From the NCBI RefSeq assembly GCF_003049085.1, contig NZ_PIQX01000001.1, forward strand, positions 186,001-250,000: a stretch of DNA of 64,000 nucleotides. The letters run 5' to 3'. A program made the translations under genes and the position numbers. Positions 31,584 to 39,518 of the stretch are shown one piece after another (position 1 is the stretch's first letter; each line of letters begins with the position of its first letter). The notes below the pieces were generated by a model. That model worked only from the letters and a program-made list of their open reading frames with translations, was not told where the DNA came from and made no database searches. Source of the DNA: Campylobacter concisus. GTDB taxonomy: Bacteria; Campylobacterota; Campylobacteria; Campylobacterales; Campylobacteraceae.

Positions 31584-31619
31584 GACCGATTAAAATTTAA
31601 GATTTTGAAAGGATTAAAA

Positions 31620-31862
31620 ATGGAGCTAAAACTTGCAAGAGCCGAATTAGACGCAAAACCAAAAACGATTTCACTAGAAAAAATAGAGGCGGCTGTCGAA
31701 AAAGAGGGTCAGAAAATTTTCTATTTTGATAAAGAAAACACACACAAACAACTAATCGCCTTAGTCGAGCATTTTGAAGAAAAAGGGCTAAGCGTCTATC
31801 ACAGAACCGTAAAATACGGACTTGATGATAGCGACTACATGTATGAAGTGCATATACTTTAA
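31620..31862 (+). CDS. HP0268-family small nuclease
   Basis: An 80-residue protein similar in length and pattern to Helicobacter HP0268 ([30 protein letters not shown]), described as a nicking endonuclease/ribonuclease. The ATG at 31620 is chosen because AAGGA lies just before it. Its stop overlaps the miaB ATG by one base. This arrangement next to nusA and miaB is as I recall in C. jejuni. Confidence 0.75.
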
Positions 31863-33163
31863 TGAGCAAAAAACTCTTTATCCAAACTTTAGGCTGTGCT
31901 ATGAATGTTCGTGACAGCGAGCATATCATAGCTGAGCTCTCACAAAAAGAAGACTACTCCTTAACACAAAATATAGAAGAAGCTGATTTAATCCTTATAA
32001 ATACTTGCTCGGTTCGTGAAAAGCCAGTTCATAAGCTCTTTAGCGAGGTCGGAGCCTTTGAAAAAGCTAAAAAAAGAGGGGCAAAGATAGGCGTTTGTGG
32101 CTGCACTGCTAGCCATTTGGGTAGTGAAATTTTTAAGCGCGCACCTTATGTTGATTTTGTTCTTGGCGCAAGAAATGTCAGCAAGATCACAAAAGCTGTA
32201 AATACGCCTAAATTTATCTCAACCGACATCAATCACGACGAGAGCGAATACGCATTTGGCGAATTTAGAGGCTCGCCATATAAAAGCCACATCAACATCT
32301 CGATCGGCTGCGACAAAAAGTGCACCTATTGCATCGTCCCACACACCAGAGGCGATGAAATTTCCATCCCTTCAAGTCTCATCTTAAAAGAGGTAGAAAA
32401 GGCTGCAAACAGCGGCGCAAAAGAGATATTTTTACTAGGACAAAATGTCAATAACTACGGTAAAAGATTTTCAGGAGTGCAAGAAAATATCGATTTTAGT
32501 GATCTGTTAGTAAAGATAAGCGAGATAGATGGCGTTGAGAGGATAAGATTTACAAGCCCACACCCACTTCACATGGATGATAAATTTCTTGAAATTTTCA
32601 CTAATAATCCAAAAATTTGCAAGTCTATGCACATGCCACTTCAAAGCGGAAATACCAAAGTTTTACGCGAGATGAAGCGTGGATACACAAAAGAGTGGTT
32701 TTTAGACCGTGCGCTAAGACTTAGAAAGATGTGTCCAGATGTGAGCATCTCAACTGATATCATTGTCGCATTTCCGGGCGAGAGTGATAGCGAGTTTGAA
32801 GATACAATGGATGTGCTTGAGCAAGTTAGATTTGAGCAAATTTTTAGCTTTAAGTATTCGCCTCGTCCGCTTACAAAGGCAGCTACTTTCACAAATCAAA
32901 TAGATGATAAAACCGCTTCAGAAAGGCTTACTCGCCTACAAAATCGCCACAATGAAATTTTAGACGAGATCGTAGCGGCACAAAAAGATAAAATTTTTGA
33001 TGTATATTTTGAAGAGCTAAGAGCAAATGGCGGCGTTGCTGGGCGAAGCTTTAATAACTTTTTAGTTCAAGTTGATGGAAGCGAAGAGCTTCTTGGCACT
33101 ACACAAAAAATCAAGATCACAAACCCAAAACGAATGGTTTTGTATGGCGAGCTGCAAATTTAA
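31862..33163 (+). CDS. miaB: tRNA-2-methylthio-N6-dimethylallyladenosine synthase
   Basis: Radical SAM methylthiotransferase acting on i6A37 in tRNA. 433 residues: N-terminal UPF0004 with three Cys ([22 protein letters not shown]), radical SAM motif [16 protein letters not shown], and a C-terminal TRAM domain. MiaB rather than RimO because of the CxxxCxxC context and the IVPHTRG sequence. Overlaps the HP0268-like gene by one base and the acyltransferase gene by 20. Confidence 0.95.
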
Positions 33164-33923
33164 AAATACCCTTGAAAAGCTCGCCCTAAATGTTGGCGTC
33201 TTTTTCATCTACATTTTGATGTGGCTCATTTTTCTAACTTGCAAAAAGAGCTACACTCCAAATTTCTTGCCACAAAATGGCTGTGTCGTCGTCTTTTGGC
33301 ACGGCAGGCTTAGCTTTATGAGCTTTGCTTACAGGCGCTGGTGGAGCAAGCAAAATAGAAAACAAGGTAAGGTGATAATCAGCGATCACAAAGATGGCGA
33401 GCTAATCACTAGAATAATCAAATTTTTTGGTATCGGCACCATTAGAGGCAGTAGCTCAAAAGGCGGCGCAAGGGCGCTTATAGAAGCCCTAAGAGAGATA
33501 AAGCAAGGCTACGACGTCATCATTACACCAGATGGCCCACGCGGACCAAGGCACAGCGTGGCAGACGGAGCTGCTGTGATCGCACAAAAGTCATCTTGCG
33601 AAATTTATGCTCTAAATTTTGAAGCAAGCTCGTTTTTGGAGTTTAAAAGCTGGGATAAGATGATACTTCCAAAGCCATTTTCAACTATAAATTTTAGCCT
33701 CTCAGCCCCTTTTAGTGTGAAAAATTTGGAGCAAAAAGAGGCAAAAGAGAAGATACAAAACGAGCTTTGGCAAGCCTCGCAAAATGACGGCGGTAAGAGC
33801 GTGAAGCAAAACCAAGAGGATTTTAGATCAAATTTAAAAATTTGGTGGAAAAAATATGCGCATAAAAATCCACAAATAAGCGATGAGATAAAAGAAATTT
33901 TGGACGAAATTTATGAAAAATAA
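33144..33923 (+). CDS. Lysophospholipid/lipid A-type acyltransferase (DUF374)
   Basis: A 259-residue membrane-associated protein. One N-terminal helix ([20 protein letters not shown]), then [34 protein letters not shown] and [16 protein letters not shown], which are the DUF374/LPLAT motifs. It probably acylates a lipid at the inner membrane. Start taken as the ATG at 33144, inside the miaB end; an earlier TTG/ATG pair at 33072-33077 would add a miaB-antiphase extension without family character. Confidence 0.8.
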
Positions 33924-34359
33924 GCTATCTATCTTTATAGCCATCTTTCTAATTATTTTATTTGGGCTATTTTTTTATAGCGACAACTCCTATAAGCTCG
34001 CTCTTGAAGCAAAATTTTTATACGAAAACAAAGAATACGAAAAGGCCTTAAATTTAAGCCAAAAAGCACTTGATATAGATATTTATAACAAAATGGCAAA
34101 TACTGTGCTAAACCAAAGCAAGGCTGCTATTAAATTTAACTCATACATAAAAAATGGCAAAGAGTATCTTGAGCGTATCAAAAAAATAAGCCAAAGTAGC
34201 GTCAGCAAGGCTGATAGTGAACGCATTAAGATGATGTGCGATGTGATGATAGATGGTTTTGACGACCTTAAAAACTTGGCCTTACTTGATAGTGAACTAA
34301 AAAATGAAGCTTTAAATACAAAAGAGATTTTCGTTAAACTTAAAAACGAGCTGTTTTAA
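33913..34359 (+). CDS. Membrane-anchored TPR-like protein, unknown function
   Basis: A 148-residue protein with an N-terminal membrane anchor (LSIFIAIFLIILFGLFFYS) and a helical body. One TPR-like unit is visible (AKFLYENKEYEKALNLSQKA). Probably periplasmic. Overlaps the acyltransferase gene by 11 bases, so it belongs to the same operon, and precedes the PilM-like gene by 60 bases. No enzyme motif. Confidence 0.65.
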   Translation: MKNKLSIFIAIFLIILFGLFFYSDNSYKLALEAKFLYENKEYEKALNLSQKALDIDIYNKMANTVLNQSKAAIKFNSYIKNGKEYLERIKKISQSSVSKADSERIKMMCDVMIDGFDDLKNLALLDSELKNEALNTKEIFVKLKNELF

Positions 34360-34419: not shown

Positions 34420-35424
34420 ATGTCTTTTAGCGTTAAAAAGCTTTTTTCTAACCTTTTTTTAAGCGTCGTGTTGGAGGGCAATGATTGCATATTCTTCGGT
34501 CAGGTCTTTAGAAATGGCAAACTTTTAAAAACTATAAACGCTAAATTTACAGATATAAATATCGATAGTATCGATGAAAAAATCATAAAATACATAGAAG
34601 AGCAAGAAAAAGCATATTTTGGTGTATATGTTTCAGTTTTTTTTAACGACGACTCGCAAGGCGCGCTTCCTAGTGTTAGCTTTGATGAATACAAAAAATT
34701 TAATATAAATACTAAAAATCTTACAAGCCTTATCATGCAGGATAGCTGGAGTATTTATGCAAATTTAAATGCTATAAAAAAATATAAAAATTTATTTGGA
34801 CAAGATAGTGTAGATCTCATCTACTCACCTATCGCCATACTCTTTTACGAGCTTTTAAAACGCGGAATTTCTCCAAAAACTACACTTTATCTTTATATCC
34901 ATGCACATTCGTTTACACTTGCGATCTTTAAAGATAAACAAATGAAGTTATCCACTTTTTTAAATATGTCTGGCTTTGAAGAAACCAACCAGGAAGCTGA
35001 AAGCCTAAAAGAAGAAGATATAACAGATATTGACAACTTAATCATTAAAGAGGAAAATGACGCAACATCTCTTGATGATTTTAAAAGTTTAGACGATTTT
35101 TTAAGTGATGATAAACAAAAAGAATTTGAAGACCTAAATTATGAACTAAACATGCCAGCTTCTACAAATGTAGAAAAATCGGTTGCTATTTTTGGGTATG
35201 ACATGAAGATGTTTGATTACATCGTAAAAGCCGTAAAAGAATTTTACGAAAATCCTCTCTACGGTGGTGATTTTATTGAGCAAATCATTGTTTTTGAAAA
35301 TACGAAAACAAGTGCAACTTTTTTACAATATCTGCAATCTGAGCTTTTAGTGGAGACTTCAGTGTATCCAGTGAATACAAATCATATTATGAATGAAATC
35401 ATGCAAGAAGAGATAATATTATGA
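34420..35424 (+). CDS. PilM/GspL-like cytoplasmic protein (tentative)
   Basis: A 334-residue soluble protein. No clear motif match, but length, predicted alpha/beta pattern (LYLYIHAHSFTLAIFKDKQM resembles an actin-like strand pair) and position before two small membrane proteins fit a PilM/GspL actin-like platform protein. Residues 185-235 are an acidic insert. Start ATG follows AGGAG. Overlaps the next gene by four bases. The PilM assignment is structural inference; an unrelated envelope protein is possible. Confidence 0.5.
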   Translation: MSFSVKKLFSNLFLSVVLEGNDCIFFGQVFRNGKLLKTINAKFTDINIDSIDEKIIKYIEEQEKAYFGVYVSVFFNDDSQGALPSVSFDEYKKFNINTKNLTSLIMQDSWSIYANLNAIKKYKNLFGQDSVDLIYSPIAILFYELLKRGISPKTTLYLYIHAHSFTLAIFKDKQMKLSTFLNMSGFEETNQEAESLKEEDITDIDNLIIKEENDATSLDDFKSLDDFLSDDKQKEFEDLNYELNMPASTNVEKSVAIFGYDMKMFDYIVKAVKEFYENPLYGGDFIEQIIVFENTKTSATFLQYLQSELLVETSVYPVNTNHIMNEIMQEEIIL

Positions 35425-35942
35425 GATTTAGCTTTATTTCTCCGGAACCAAGACCACTTATATCTATCTTTAGCAAAATTTGGCTAAGCCTTATAAGCTT
35501 TGTGTTTGTAGCTCTTTTGGCAACAAATTTCTTTATACTTTACAAAAATTATTCAATTGAAAAAAATATAAATTTTTTATCAAATGAGCAAAAAGAGCTT
35601 AGTCAAAAAATAGTCACAACAGATGAAATTTCAGCTAAACTAGCCGTACAAATAGAATCTGCAAATGATATCTTCACATCAAATTCTATTCTCAAGCAAA
35701 GCTTGCACAATCTTTTTGATCTAGTACCTGACAGTATAACGCTTGAAGAGGTTTTTATGGATAAAAGCTCGCTCATCATTCGCGGTATAACGCCGACAAA
35801 AGATGTATTTAATCAGCTTCTAGCTTCACCTTTAAGATCTATTTTTACGACTTCAAATACTAGCTTTTATCAAAGTAAAAACGGCTGGTATGGCTTTATA
35901 AGCACAAATAAAATTGATAATTCTGAGGGATATAATGAGTAA
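35421..35942 (+). CDS. PilN-like bitopic membrane protein (tentative)
   Basis: A 173-residue protein: short cytoplasmic N-terminus (RFSFISPEPRPLISIF), one membrane helix (about 22-44), coiled coil (45-80) and a ferredoxin-like C-terminus with IRGITPTKDVFNQLLASPLR, close to the PilN pattern of LxGxa and a short periplasmic alpha/beta domain. ATGA overlap with the PilM-like gene; next gene overlaps by eight bases. Confidence 0.55.
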   Translation: MRFSFISPEPRPLISIFSKIWLSLISFVFVALLATNFFILYKNYSIEKNINFLSNEQKELSQKIVTTDEISAKLAVQIESANDIFTSNSILKQSLHNLFDLVPDSITLEEVFMDKSSLIIRGITPTKDVFNQLLASPLRSIFTTSNTSFYQSKNGWYGFISTNKIDNSEGYNE

Positions 35943-36471
35943 AAAAGATACGAGCTTAGAAAAAATAGATCCCGTTAAGCTTTTACTTTTTATATTTGCT
36001 TTTATTGTAGTTTGCTTTATTATGATATTTGGTTTTATCGTGCCAAATATAAAAGAATTTAAAAGCCTAACTAGACAAAATTATTCACAGACCTCATCTT
36101 ATACAAAAGTAAAAAATGAATTTGAAGCTAAATTTAAAGCCCTTGAAGCAACTAAACAAAAAGATGGAGCTATCATTTCAGCTTTTGAGAATAAATTTGA
36201 TAAAGATAAATTTATAGAATTTGCCTCTAAATTTTTTAGTGAAGTAAGCCTTAGTAAAATAGAAGAAGGTGATAATAATGCTAGTGAGAAATTTTTTAGA
36301 TTTCGTCTAAATGTAACTAGCTCTCTAAGGACGCCACAAAAATTTTATGACTTTTTAGATGCGCTTAGCAGCTATGACAGTATCGTAAAGACTGAATTTC
36401 CTATCGTCATGAAAGGCGAAAAGGATAAAATCCATACTACTTTTAATATAAAAGTTTTTGGGTTGAAGTAA
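35935..36471 (+). CDS. PilO-like bitopic membrane protein (tentative)
   Basis: A 178-residue protein with one membrane helix (about 13-37), a coiled coil (about 40-75) and a C-terminal alpha/beta domain (RLNVTSSLRTPQKFYDFLDALSS), the PilO layout. Start is the ATG at 35935 behind GAGGGA; it overlaps the PilN-like stop by eight bases. Together the three genes look like an inner-membrane alignment subcomplex of a type IV pilus or type II secretion-like machine. No ATPase, secretin or pilin is next to them. Confidence 0.5.
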   Translation: MSKKDTSLEKIDPVKLLLFIFAFIVVCFIMIFGFIVPNIKEFKSLTRQNYSQTSSYTKVKNEFEAKFKALEATKQKDGAIISAFENKFDKDKFIEFASKFFSEVSLSKIEEGDNNASEKFFRFRLNVTSSLRTPQKFYDFLDALSSYDSIVKTEFPIVMKGEKDKIHTTFNIKVFGLK

Positions 36472-36475
36472 AAGC

Positions 36476-37540
36476 TTAAAGTCTACCATCAAGATAAAGT
36501 TTAACCAAAAACTCGCTATATCTTTTTCTGCCAAGATAGTTTAAATGATGCCCCATATCTGATAACTCATCATCGTTAATTTTAAAATTTGTTAGATCAA
36601 TAACTTTAGCATTTTTAATAGCTGACATTATCTCGTTTATATCATATTTTATAGTGGCACCATCAAATATAGGTTCTAATATAACAACAACCTTTATCCC
36701 ACTTTTTACAAGTGGATTAATTACATAATTTTGAAAATATTTTATAGTATTTTGATTCAACCCCTTTAGCTCGATCGTCCTACCATAATATTCTCTTGAC
36801 AATCCATCCGAAAAAAGAATAATATCTCCATTGCTACATTTTACAAAGATAATTTTTTTATTTTTTGTGACATTTGAATTTATATCTTCTATGTTGACTA
36901 GATCACAATCACTATATGCCTTTACATCAAAAATACTTTTTGCTTCAAAATTGCTTGCTTTGGTTTTATTATCTGGAGCAAATTTTCCATAAAACCCAAC
37001 TATCCTATTATAAATACCTTCAGAATATCTCAAGAACAGATGTATGCTTGCAAAAAAATCAGGTAGTGTTTTTAAAAAGACTATTTTATCTGTGCCAAAA
37101 TTTGCTACAAATTCATCATTGGTATAAATTTTGATACCTTTTTCTGTATAATCCTCAAAAAGTTTATTAATTTCTATACTAAAAATAACTTCCTTTATAT
37201 TAACTTTTTTAATAATTTTTGTAATAAAAGGGTAATCGCCTATAAAATTACCAGATACACCAAAATTATAAATACTGATATTATTTTCAGCAAAAATACT
37301 TGTTGATATATGATGAAGAGTTCTACTGCTTCCAACAAAAACGATATCCTTTTGCTTTTTGCTATTTAGTTTAAAGTGCTCCGCTTTTGAAATTTTATTA
37401 TCAACGAAATTTGTCTTACTTGTTCTACTTTCTGCAAAAACATAAAGCACAACATCAAGCCCAACCATAGCAAAAGCCACTAAAAACAGGCATAGAAATA
37501 CTTTTTTCTTAAAATCTAAAGTATAAAAATTCACTCGCAT
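36476..37540 (-). CDS. SGNH/GDSL-type protein partnered with MBOAT acyltransferase
   Basis: A 354-residue protein with one N-terminal membrane helix (about 13-35) and a periplasmic domain. DIVFVGSSRTLHHIS carries the putative nucleophile Ser72; MGHHLNYLGRKRY near the C-terminus gives the His of the triad. Such DltD/AlgX/PatB-like partners receive acyl groups from MBOAT proteins and place them on peptidoglycan or a glycan. It starts inside the last 32 bases of the MBOAT gene, so expression is coupled to it. Confidence 0.72.
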   Translation of the reverse strand: MRVNFYTLDFKKKVFLCLFLVAFAMVGLDVVLYVFAESRTSKTNFVDNKISKAEHFKLNSKKQKDIVFVGSSRTLHHISTSIFAENNISIYNFGVSGNFIGDYPFITKIIKKVNIKEVIFSIEINKLFEDYTEKGIKIYTNDEFVANFGTDKIVFLKTLPDFFASIHLFLRYSEGIYNRIVGFYGKFAPDNKTKASNFEAKSIFDVKAYSDCDLVNIEDINSNVTKNKKIIFVKCSNGDIILFSDGLSREYYGRTIELKGLNQNTIKYFQNYVINPLVKSGIKVVVILEPIFDGATIKYDINEIMSAIKNAKVIDLTNFKINDDELSDMGHHLNYLGRKRYSEFLVKLYLDGRL

Positions 37541-38885
37541 TATTAAGCCTAATTGCTAAGATTGATATAAACAAAAAGAAAGATGTTGCAAAAATTTGCC
37601 AGATAGTAAATTTAAATTTCTTATCAAATGCTATTTGCATAGAGTTTTTAAAAAGCAAAACAACCAAAAAAGCTAAAACGATAAAAAGTATCTCAAGATA
37701 GTTAACGTCTATCTTAAACTCACCAAAAAACATCCCTCGGATCACTTTCATGGCATCTTCAAAGCTTTTTGCCCTAAAAAATATCCATGTAAAATTTACA
37801 AAGTTAAAGGTGATGATCCAAGCAATGATTTTATTTAATTTAAAATTTAACTTTTGCCAACATCTGTGAATAACAATAGCAACACCATGTAAAGCACCCC
37901 AAACAACAAATGTCCAAGCAGCTCCATGCCAAAGACCGCCTATCAAAAATACCAAAAACAAATTTAGATAGGTACGGCTCTGCCCCCCCCTATTTCCTCC
38001 AAGTGGGATATATATGTAGTCTCTTAAAAAACGTGATAGTGTAATGTGCCACCTATGCCAAAAATCCTGAATATTTAAAGCCTTATACGGGGAGTTAAAA
38101 TTTATGGGAAGCCTTATGTTAAAAAGCAGCGCAAGACCTATCGCCATATCACAATAACCACTAAAATCAAAATAAAGTTGAAAGGTATACGAAAGTGACG
38201 TCGCCCATGCTTGCAGAAAAGTCAAATTTCCTTCCATATCAAATCCAGCATTTGCAAAAATCGAAAAAGTATCAGCAACCACACTCTTCTTAAATAGCCC
38301 TATGCTAAAAACAAAAAGCCCAAGAGCTATAAATTTATAGTTTTTTATAAGATTAAATTTATTTGCAAACTGAGGCATCATTTCTTTGTGATGCACTATC
38401 GGACCAGCAATAAGCTGTGGAAAAAATGTTATAAAAAGGCAGTAGTTTAAAAAACTATTCTCTTTTGTCTGCTTGTTATAACTATCCACTAGATATGCTA
38501 TTTGCTGAAATGTGACAAAACTAAGTGCTAGCGGCAAAGCGATATGAAGTAGACTTAAATTTGTATTTGCTATAGCGTTTAAATTTGAAATTAAAAAATC
38601 AGCATATTTAAAATATCCAAGTAAAGCGAGGTTGCAAACTATACCAAAAATCAAAATAGCTTTACTCTGATGTTTTGCAAGAAATTTTGAAATAAAGAAG
38701 TTAAAGATAATGCTTCCTAGTAAAATCGGCAGATAATAAACACTCCAATAAGCATAAAAAAATAAACTAGCACTTACCAAAAAAGCTTTTGCAAGATTGC
38801 TTAGTCTCTTTTTATTTAGAAAAAAATATACAAAAAATACAAGTGGTAAAAATACAAATATAAAGACATATGAGTTAAAAAGCAA
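37509..38885 (-). CDS. MBOAT-family membrane O-acyltransferase with G8 tract
   Basis: A 458-residue polytopic inner-membrane protein of the AlgI/DltB/PatA family. Landmarks: FVTFQQIAYLVDSY, FFPQLIAGPIVHH, FSGYCDMAIGLALLFNIRLPINF, FWHRWHITLSRFLRDYIYIPLGG and GGLWHGAAWTFVVWGALHG (His320 and His333, one of them catalytic). It moves acyl groups, usually acetyl, across the membrane. A run of eight G (37983-37990 on plus as C8) encodes Arg299-Gly-Gly in frame, so the gene is ON here. The acceptor (peptidoglycan, LOS or capsule) is unknown. Confidence 0.87.
   Translation of the reverse strand: MLFNSYVFIFVFLPLVFFVYFFLNKKRLSNLAKAFLVSASLFFYAYWSVYYLPILLGSIIFNFFISKFLAKHQSKAILIFGIVCNLALLGYFKYADFLISNLNAIANTNLSLLHIALPLALSFVTFQQIAYLVDSYNKQTKENSFLNYCLFITFFPQLIAGPIVHHKEMMPQFANKFNLIKNYKFIALGLFVFSIGLFKKSVVADTFSIFANAGFDMEGNLTFLQAWATSLSYTFQLYFDFSGYCDMAIGLALLFNIRLPINFNSPYKALNIQDFWHRWHITLSRFLRDYIYIPLGGNRGGQSRTYLNLFLVFLIGGLWHGAAWTFVVWGALHGVAIVIHRCWQKLNFKLNKIIAWIITFNFVNFTWIFFRAKSFEDAMKVIRGMFFGEFKIDVNYLEILFIVLAFLVVLLFKNSMQIAFDKKFKFTIWQIFATSFFLFISILAIRLNNASEFLYFRF
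37983..37990 (-). repeat. Poly-G8 tract inside the MBOAT gene
   Basis: Eight consecutive G on the coding strand, the only G/C homopolymer of this length I found in the window. In Campylobacter such tracts change length by slipped-strand mispairing. Reading ahead: loss of one G reaches a stop after residue 306, gain of one G after residue 348; both remove or scramble the catalytic WHG...HG segment. Confidence 0.85.
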
Positions 38886-38894
38886 TTTTATCCC

Positions 38895-39518
38895 TTATTT
38901 TTTCTCTACACATTTACCAAGCTGACAGGCTCTTTTGTAAAGTGCGTCCGCCTTTGTTTCATCGCCGCTTAGCTTTGCAAGCAAAAAGCACGACTGAGCG
39001 TATTCAAGCTCGCAGCTCTTTGCCAAAAGCCTTAGCACTCTAGCCTCAGCCTTAGTTCTATCTATCTTATGAACTTTTAAATTTTCGCTTTCGATGTATG
39101 ACTTTAGCCCCATTGCCTCGTTGTAGCAGCCAACACCATCGCCACTATCACAAGCTAGTTTATAAAGTTTTAGAGCTTTTTCCATATCTTTTTGCTCATC
39201 AATCAGCCCTTGCTCATAAATTTGACCCAAATTTGAACAAGCCGTCGCAAGCCCAGCATTGCAAGCTTTTTCGTAGTAGCCTTTTGCTTTTACAAAGTCT
39301 TTTTCGTTGCTAAAATTTACGGCTAAATTGTTGCAGTCGATGCTATTTCCATTCTCGCAGTTTTGCATCATCTTCTCTTTTTCAAGCTCAATACGCTCTG
39401 CCCTAGCCTCTTCATCACTTTGCCAAAAGCCAAAGCTTACCATCTTTTGCCAAGACCAGCAACCACTAAGCATAAAGCCCATGGCTAAAATAAGACTAAA
39501 ATTTAAGACCTTTTTCAC
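38895..39518 (-). CDS. Sel1-repeat (Hcp-like) lipoprotein
   Basis: A 207-residue lipoprotein: signal VLNFSLILAMGFMLSGC with lipidation at about Cys20, then Sel1-like repeats with paired Cys (IDCNNLAVNF, YYEKACNAGLATACSNLGQIYEQG, KLACDSGDGVGCYNEA, KSCELEYAQSCFLLAKL). The Cys spacing matches Helicobacter cysteine-rich (Hcp) repeat proteins, where disulfides stabilise each repeat in the periplasm. Partner unknown. One base separates it from the next Sel1 gene. Confidence 0.8.
   Translation of the reverse strand: MKKVLNFSLILAMGFMLSGCWSWQKMVSFGFWQSDEEARAERIELEKEKMMQNCENGNSIDCNNLAVNFSNEKDFVKAKGYYEKACNAGLATACSNLGQIYEQGLIDEQKDMEKALKLYKLACDSGDGVGCYNEAMGLKSYIESENLKVHKIDRTKAEARVLRLLAKSCELEYAQSCFLLAKLSGDETKADALYKRACQLGKCVEKK

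Follow-up and report, generated by a model that had tools for sequence, protein, structure and literature searches.

A PilM/PilN/PilO-like gene set behind miaB in Campylobacter concisus very probably encodes the flagellar motor cage and follows a TPR protein that may be a further part

The three overlapping genes M, N and O in the stretch of DNA analysed here (64,000 nucleotides, the window) are, with high confidence, fcpM, fcpN and fcpO, which encode the peripheral cage of the flagellar motor. The identification is based on homology, on the locus and on co-occurrence with flagella, while assembly, stoichiometry and function are carried over from the orthologs in C. jejuni and H. pylori. M-N-O is an already known system; the TPR protein T, encoded upstream, is the lead beyond the available published work. 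Seven genes run in one direction at this place in the window:

31605..31862, forward strand: HP0268-like gene, 85 aa (Pfam HP0268, E 6.8e-38), which opens the conserved neighbourhood and is found in the same place in L148, a locus titled C. jejuni
31862..33163, forward strand: miaB, which marks the upstream side of fcpMNO and precedes the DUF374 gene or fcpM in most loci
33144..33923, forward strand: DUF374 acyltransferase-like gene, 259 aa from ATG or 283 aa from TTG 33072 (Pfam DUF374, E 5e-30)
33913..34359, forward strand: T, TPR-containing, inner-membrane-anchored protein, 148 aa, a candidate additional part
34420..35424, forward strand: M (fcpM), 334 aa, putative cytoplasmic PilM-like, actin-fold cage protein
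35421..35942, forward strand: N (fcpN), 173 aa, putative bitopic PilN-like cage protein
35935..36471, forward strand: O (fcpO), 178 aa, putative bitopic PilO-like cage protein

The sequence-only reading had proposed an M-N-O layout of three overlapping genes at 34420-36471, and the open reading frames of the window bear this out, except that the start of O was revised to ATG 35935, which is preceded by GAGG and was preferred over TTG 35914. M and N overlap by 4 bp (ATGA), and N and O also overlap. Hydropathy agreed with the topology that had been proposed: there is no transmembrane helix in M, a soluble protein, and a single N-terminal one in each of the bitopic proteins N (residues 22-40) and O (residues 18-36). 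The order and overlap of M, N and O were kept in nearly all of 50 loci from genomes of the family and in 79 of the 80 named loci (Campylobacter, Sulfurimonas, Sulfuricurvum, Sulfurospirillum and relatives), and the arrangement is therefore not due to chance. The closest named relatives were C. concisus (90-91% in N). The gene immediately downstream of O is unrelated and lies on the opposite strand, and no PilP/PilQ or Gsp gene set is linked to the locus. By reading only, the opposite strand at 36476-39518 of the window encodes a 354-aa protein, an MBOAT/AlgI-like membrane protein (458 aa) and a Sel1-like repeat lipoprotein.

None of the three proteins matched Pfam or NCBIfam above the cut-off, and searches of PDB sequences with profiles of M, N and O gave no relevant match. 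Ortholog alignments were built from the genomes of the family (32 sequences for M, 32 for N and 30 for O), and those of M and O were used for AlphaFold2. The M model (pLDDT 79, pTM 0.76, disordered at 187-248) found actin-like proteins as its best PDB matches in Foldseek (BT_3980, E 2e-10; P. aeruginosa PilM 5eox, E 3.5e-9; FtsA, E 2.3e-8), together with the PilM of a type IVa pilus model and a PilM-PilN complex; the TM score of these structural matches was about 0.45. As FtsA and other actin-like proteins also match, the fold of M by itself cannot single out PilM. The O model (pLDDT 81.6) has a long helix (13-76), two short helices and then a small alpha/beta domain, and its best PDB matches were PilO from two organisms and Amuc_1100 (E 6e-5 to 1e-2; PilO 3jc8 at 6e-5, 5uvr at 5e-3 and 2rjz at 7.5e-3). 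The actin-like fold and the alpha/beta domain by which the earlier proposal could be checked were found in the predicted structures of M and O, respectively. According to these models, M is PilM-like with an actin-like fold and O is PilO-like, with a helix, a coiled coil and a small alpha/beta domain.

The evidence for N comes from sequence profiles and consists of weak matches to PilN. Pfam PilN (PF05137) was matched weakly by 10 of the 32 members (best E 0.0023). In hhalign, N preferred the PilN half of the PilMN fusion encoded elsewhere in the same genome (P 1.5e-4 over 118 columns), with a column-shuffle control that was unreliable, as it produced one outlier, at 139.8, for N; we count the hhalign result as weak support. 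When M, N and O were compared in the same way with E. coli HofM/N/O and with the genome's own PilMN and PilO, there was a modest rise for N against PilN and O against PilO only. PF11104 (PilM_2) was matched by none of the 32 members of the M alignment and by nothing in the own genome, the PilM half of the own PilMN fusion included, and M gave no significant profile match to that PilM. The proposed PilM/PilN/PilO likeness consequently stands for M, as an actin-like protein, and for O, while for N it extends to weak PilN matches.

Next, we compared the distribution of M with those of a flagellar marker and a pilus marker. M was detected in 51 and FlhA in 50 of the 81 genomes of the family; 49 genomes had both, 29 had neither and three were discordant (M without FlhA in G007 and in G012, which is 82% complete, and FlhA without detected M in G008). 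Fisher p for the association was 1.7e-18 across the 81 genomes, uncorrected for relatedness and with two whole genera lacking both. T2SSF, the marker for type IV pili and competence, was present in 78 of the 81 genomes, including 27 of the 30 without M. M therefore tracks flagella and not pili. Two other markers were dropped: PF11104, as the match inspected (E about 1e-4; L099:6301-7719) was FtsA, in place of which T2SSF was used, and PF20560 (MotA_N), which fails even in the flagellated genome of the window.

The same genome carries flhA, fliG, fliM and an FlgY-like E-ring gene behind purA. It also carries a complete pilus/competence cluster, separate from the set in the window, at about 153.5-162.8 kb of its contig (G000:C1; L094:3515-12813), in the order PilMN fusion, PilO, PilP, secretin, AAA ATPase, TPR protein, T2SSE ATPase and T2SSF (PilC-like). 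The sequence-only reading had taken the set of the window for the inner-membrane alignment module of a type IV pilus, type II secretion or competence (Cts) machine, with the remaining components possibly encoded at other sites. The PilM-like and PilO-like folds suit such a module, as does the existence of a cluster with a secretin, ATPases and a PilC-like gene, but a PilMN fusion, PilO and PilP are already encoded within that cluster, and the near-universal T2SSF contrasts with an M that follows FlhA, making this setting highly improbable. The other option offered, an independent envelope scaffold, came close, since the set is that of the flagellar motor cage. A second secretin in this genome was considered as a pilus part and rejected, as it belongs to a filamentous-phage-like element about 1-9 kb past the end of the window (L095:2089-9824 of G000:C1), recognised by eye, with the secretin assigned by Pfam, and comprising a small coat-like protein, a Zot-like ATPase, a pIV-like secretin, a replication protein and an integrase.

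Another genome of the family, G007 (99% complete; L181:6870-8708, L250:2866-6899 and L097:852-4473), gave no FlhA match and has intact frames for FlhF, FlhG, FliM, FliN/FliY and a fusion of the FliF C-terminal part with FliG (612 aa), together with a shortened fcpM, fcpN and fcpO. Such a set of rotor and cage genes without an export gate is either a disappearing relic or the basis of a filamentless structure derived from the motor. G075, which lacks FlhA, encodes a 331-aa protein (L182:1309-2304) whose C-terminal end matches FliG_C (8.5e-12) and which adjoins a hisC-like gene; it looks like another flagellar remnant. In the otherwise flagellated G002 (L031), stop codons or a frameshift disrupt fcpM, with N and O left intact.

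T had been described as a TPR-like, anchored protein and suggested as a possible fourth part; the description was confirmed by a single TPR repeat (about residues 35-64) and one N-terminal transmembrane helix (residues 5-23 by hydropathy). With a profile, T was detected in some 120 of the 249 genomes of the Campylobacterales (124 reach E <= 1e-3, three of them only weakly). It is absent from C. jejuni-type loci and from loci that we read, from the genomes, as C. fetus-like. There is no mention of T in the available text of PMC11870540, as distinct from its Extended Data Figure 10, which shows the upstream genes.

It is possible, though we hold it as a tentative reading, that T forms another subunit of the cage or stator scaffold, one that most environmental Campylobacterales and the C. 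concisus group have retained and that has disappeared from the C. jejuni and C. fetus-like lineages. Within the family, all genomes with T also have M. T lies at the fcpMNO locus in 52 of the 80 named N loci, and M, N and O follow it in 30 of 40 T loci examined from the order (two are cut off and eight are without them). Moreover, in L212, one of these eight, T begins 3 bp behind a rod gene of the FlgE/F/G type, with fliP near, and seven T loci keep T with fcpMNO after loss of the DUF374 gene. In L218, another of the eight, an N-like frame lies 2 kb from T. Against a role in the cage, a XerH-like tyrosine recombinase gene separates T from fcpM in many Sulfurimonas and Sulfuricurvum loci (also L118:2153-3004 and L128:2136-2993), and in most loci it is the DUF374 gene that T overlaps or comes directly after. 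Furthermore, four of the eight loci (L193, L198, L226 and L227) keep miaB-DUF374-T with no fcpMNO following.

The last two observations would rather fit a partnership of T with the DUF374 acyltransferase-like protein in membrane lipid modification, with T being a mere neighbour of the cage genes. We consider this unlikely, as in the seven loci noted above T stands beside fcpMNO without the DUF374 gene, T adjoins the rod gene in L212, and most of the loci of the family without T still have the DUF374 gene, which was present in all 51 family loci examined. T is treated here as a plausible candidate for a further motor part. It might, with the same reserve as for the subunit reading, be an unrecognised ancestral part of the Campylobacterales flagellar motor scaffold, with secondary loss in the lineages to which the model organisms belong. 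If so, the motors of many relatives have one part more than the published models. A motor part of this kind would fall outside the C. jejuni model, because the C. jejuni lineage has no T, and would help to explain why motors differ in structure across the Campylobacterales.

By orthology with the published cage, FcpN and FcpO would form pairs in the inner membrane by way of their membrane helices and coiled coils, their small alpha/beta domains would face the periplasm, and PflD would join them. FcpM would lie beneath in the cytoplasm, probably with a grip on the N-terminal tail of FcpN like that of PilM on PilN. Residues 1-21 of N, ahead of the membrane helix, are strongly conserved in the family alignment (S4 is invariant, and P8, P12, F17 and W21 are nearly so); we infer the grip on this tail from its conservation and from the PilN tail bound to PilM in 2ych. 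The cage as a whole would surround and stabilise the stators.

The pilus/competence cluster of the same genome is of the same M/N/O kind as the set in the window, but it is unlinked to it, and its PilM and PilN are fused and followed by PilO, PilP, a secretin and ATPases. Type IV pilus PilM/PilN/PilO (P. aeruginosa; HofM/N/O in E. coli) share with the window set the three-gene order and the combination of one actin-fold cytoplasmic protein with two bitopic proteins, and the predicted folds of M and O match the solved PilM and PilO. The window set differs from this alignment complex in that no PilP/PilQ stands behind it, in its marginal sequence similarity and in a distribution that tracks flagella.

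The motor cage of H. pylori is likewise built of PilM/N/O homologs (PilO being HPG27_252), and an effect of these proteins on early biofilm formation has been reported (PMC11237671); we liken the window set to this cage by description. In C. jejuni, according to the available part of PMC11870540, FcpM, FcpN and FcpO (CJJ81176_0481-0479) are PilM/N/O homologs that form the motor cage and are encoded in an operon of their own, upstream of which miaB is conserved; their genes accompany the flagellar gene set whether pilus genes are present or absent, and mutants in which they are deleted have no cage and retain stators in about 10% of the motors. In published work, the 34 cage units per C. jejuni motor consist of FcpM/N/O and PflD, and the cage holds the MotAB stator units in position. 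We take CJJ81176_0481-0479 to be Cj0456c-Cj0454c, and Cj0455c to be fcpN from its size and its position between Cj0454c and Cj0456c. Deletion of Cj0455c makes C. jejuni non-motile (PMC11955535). The comparison of 81 genomes against flhA and T2SSF tests the published assignment of fcpMNO independently, at the level of genomes, and assigns the set to flagella, not to pili or competence. The window system shares with that of C. jejuni the order of the genes, the miaB neighbourhood, the sizes and folds of the proteins and the co-occurrence with flagella. In L148 the order is HP0268-like gene, miaB, DUF374, M, N and O, with N 43% identical to that of the window and M and O at the same positions; the window locus differs in having the TPR gene in addition, placed after the DUF374 gene and before fcpM.
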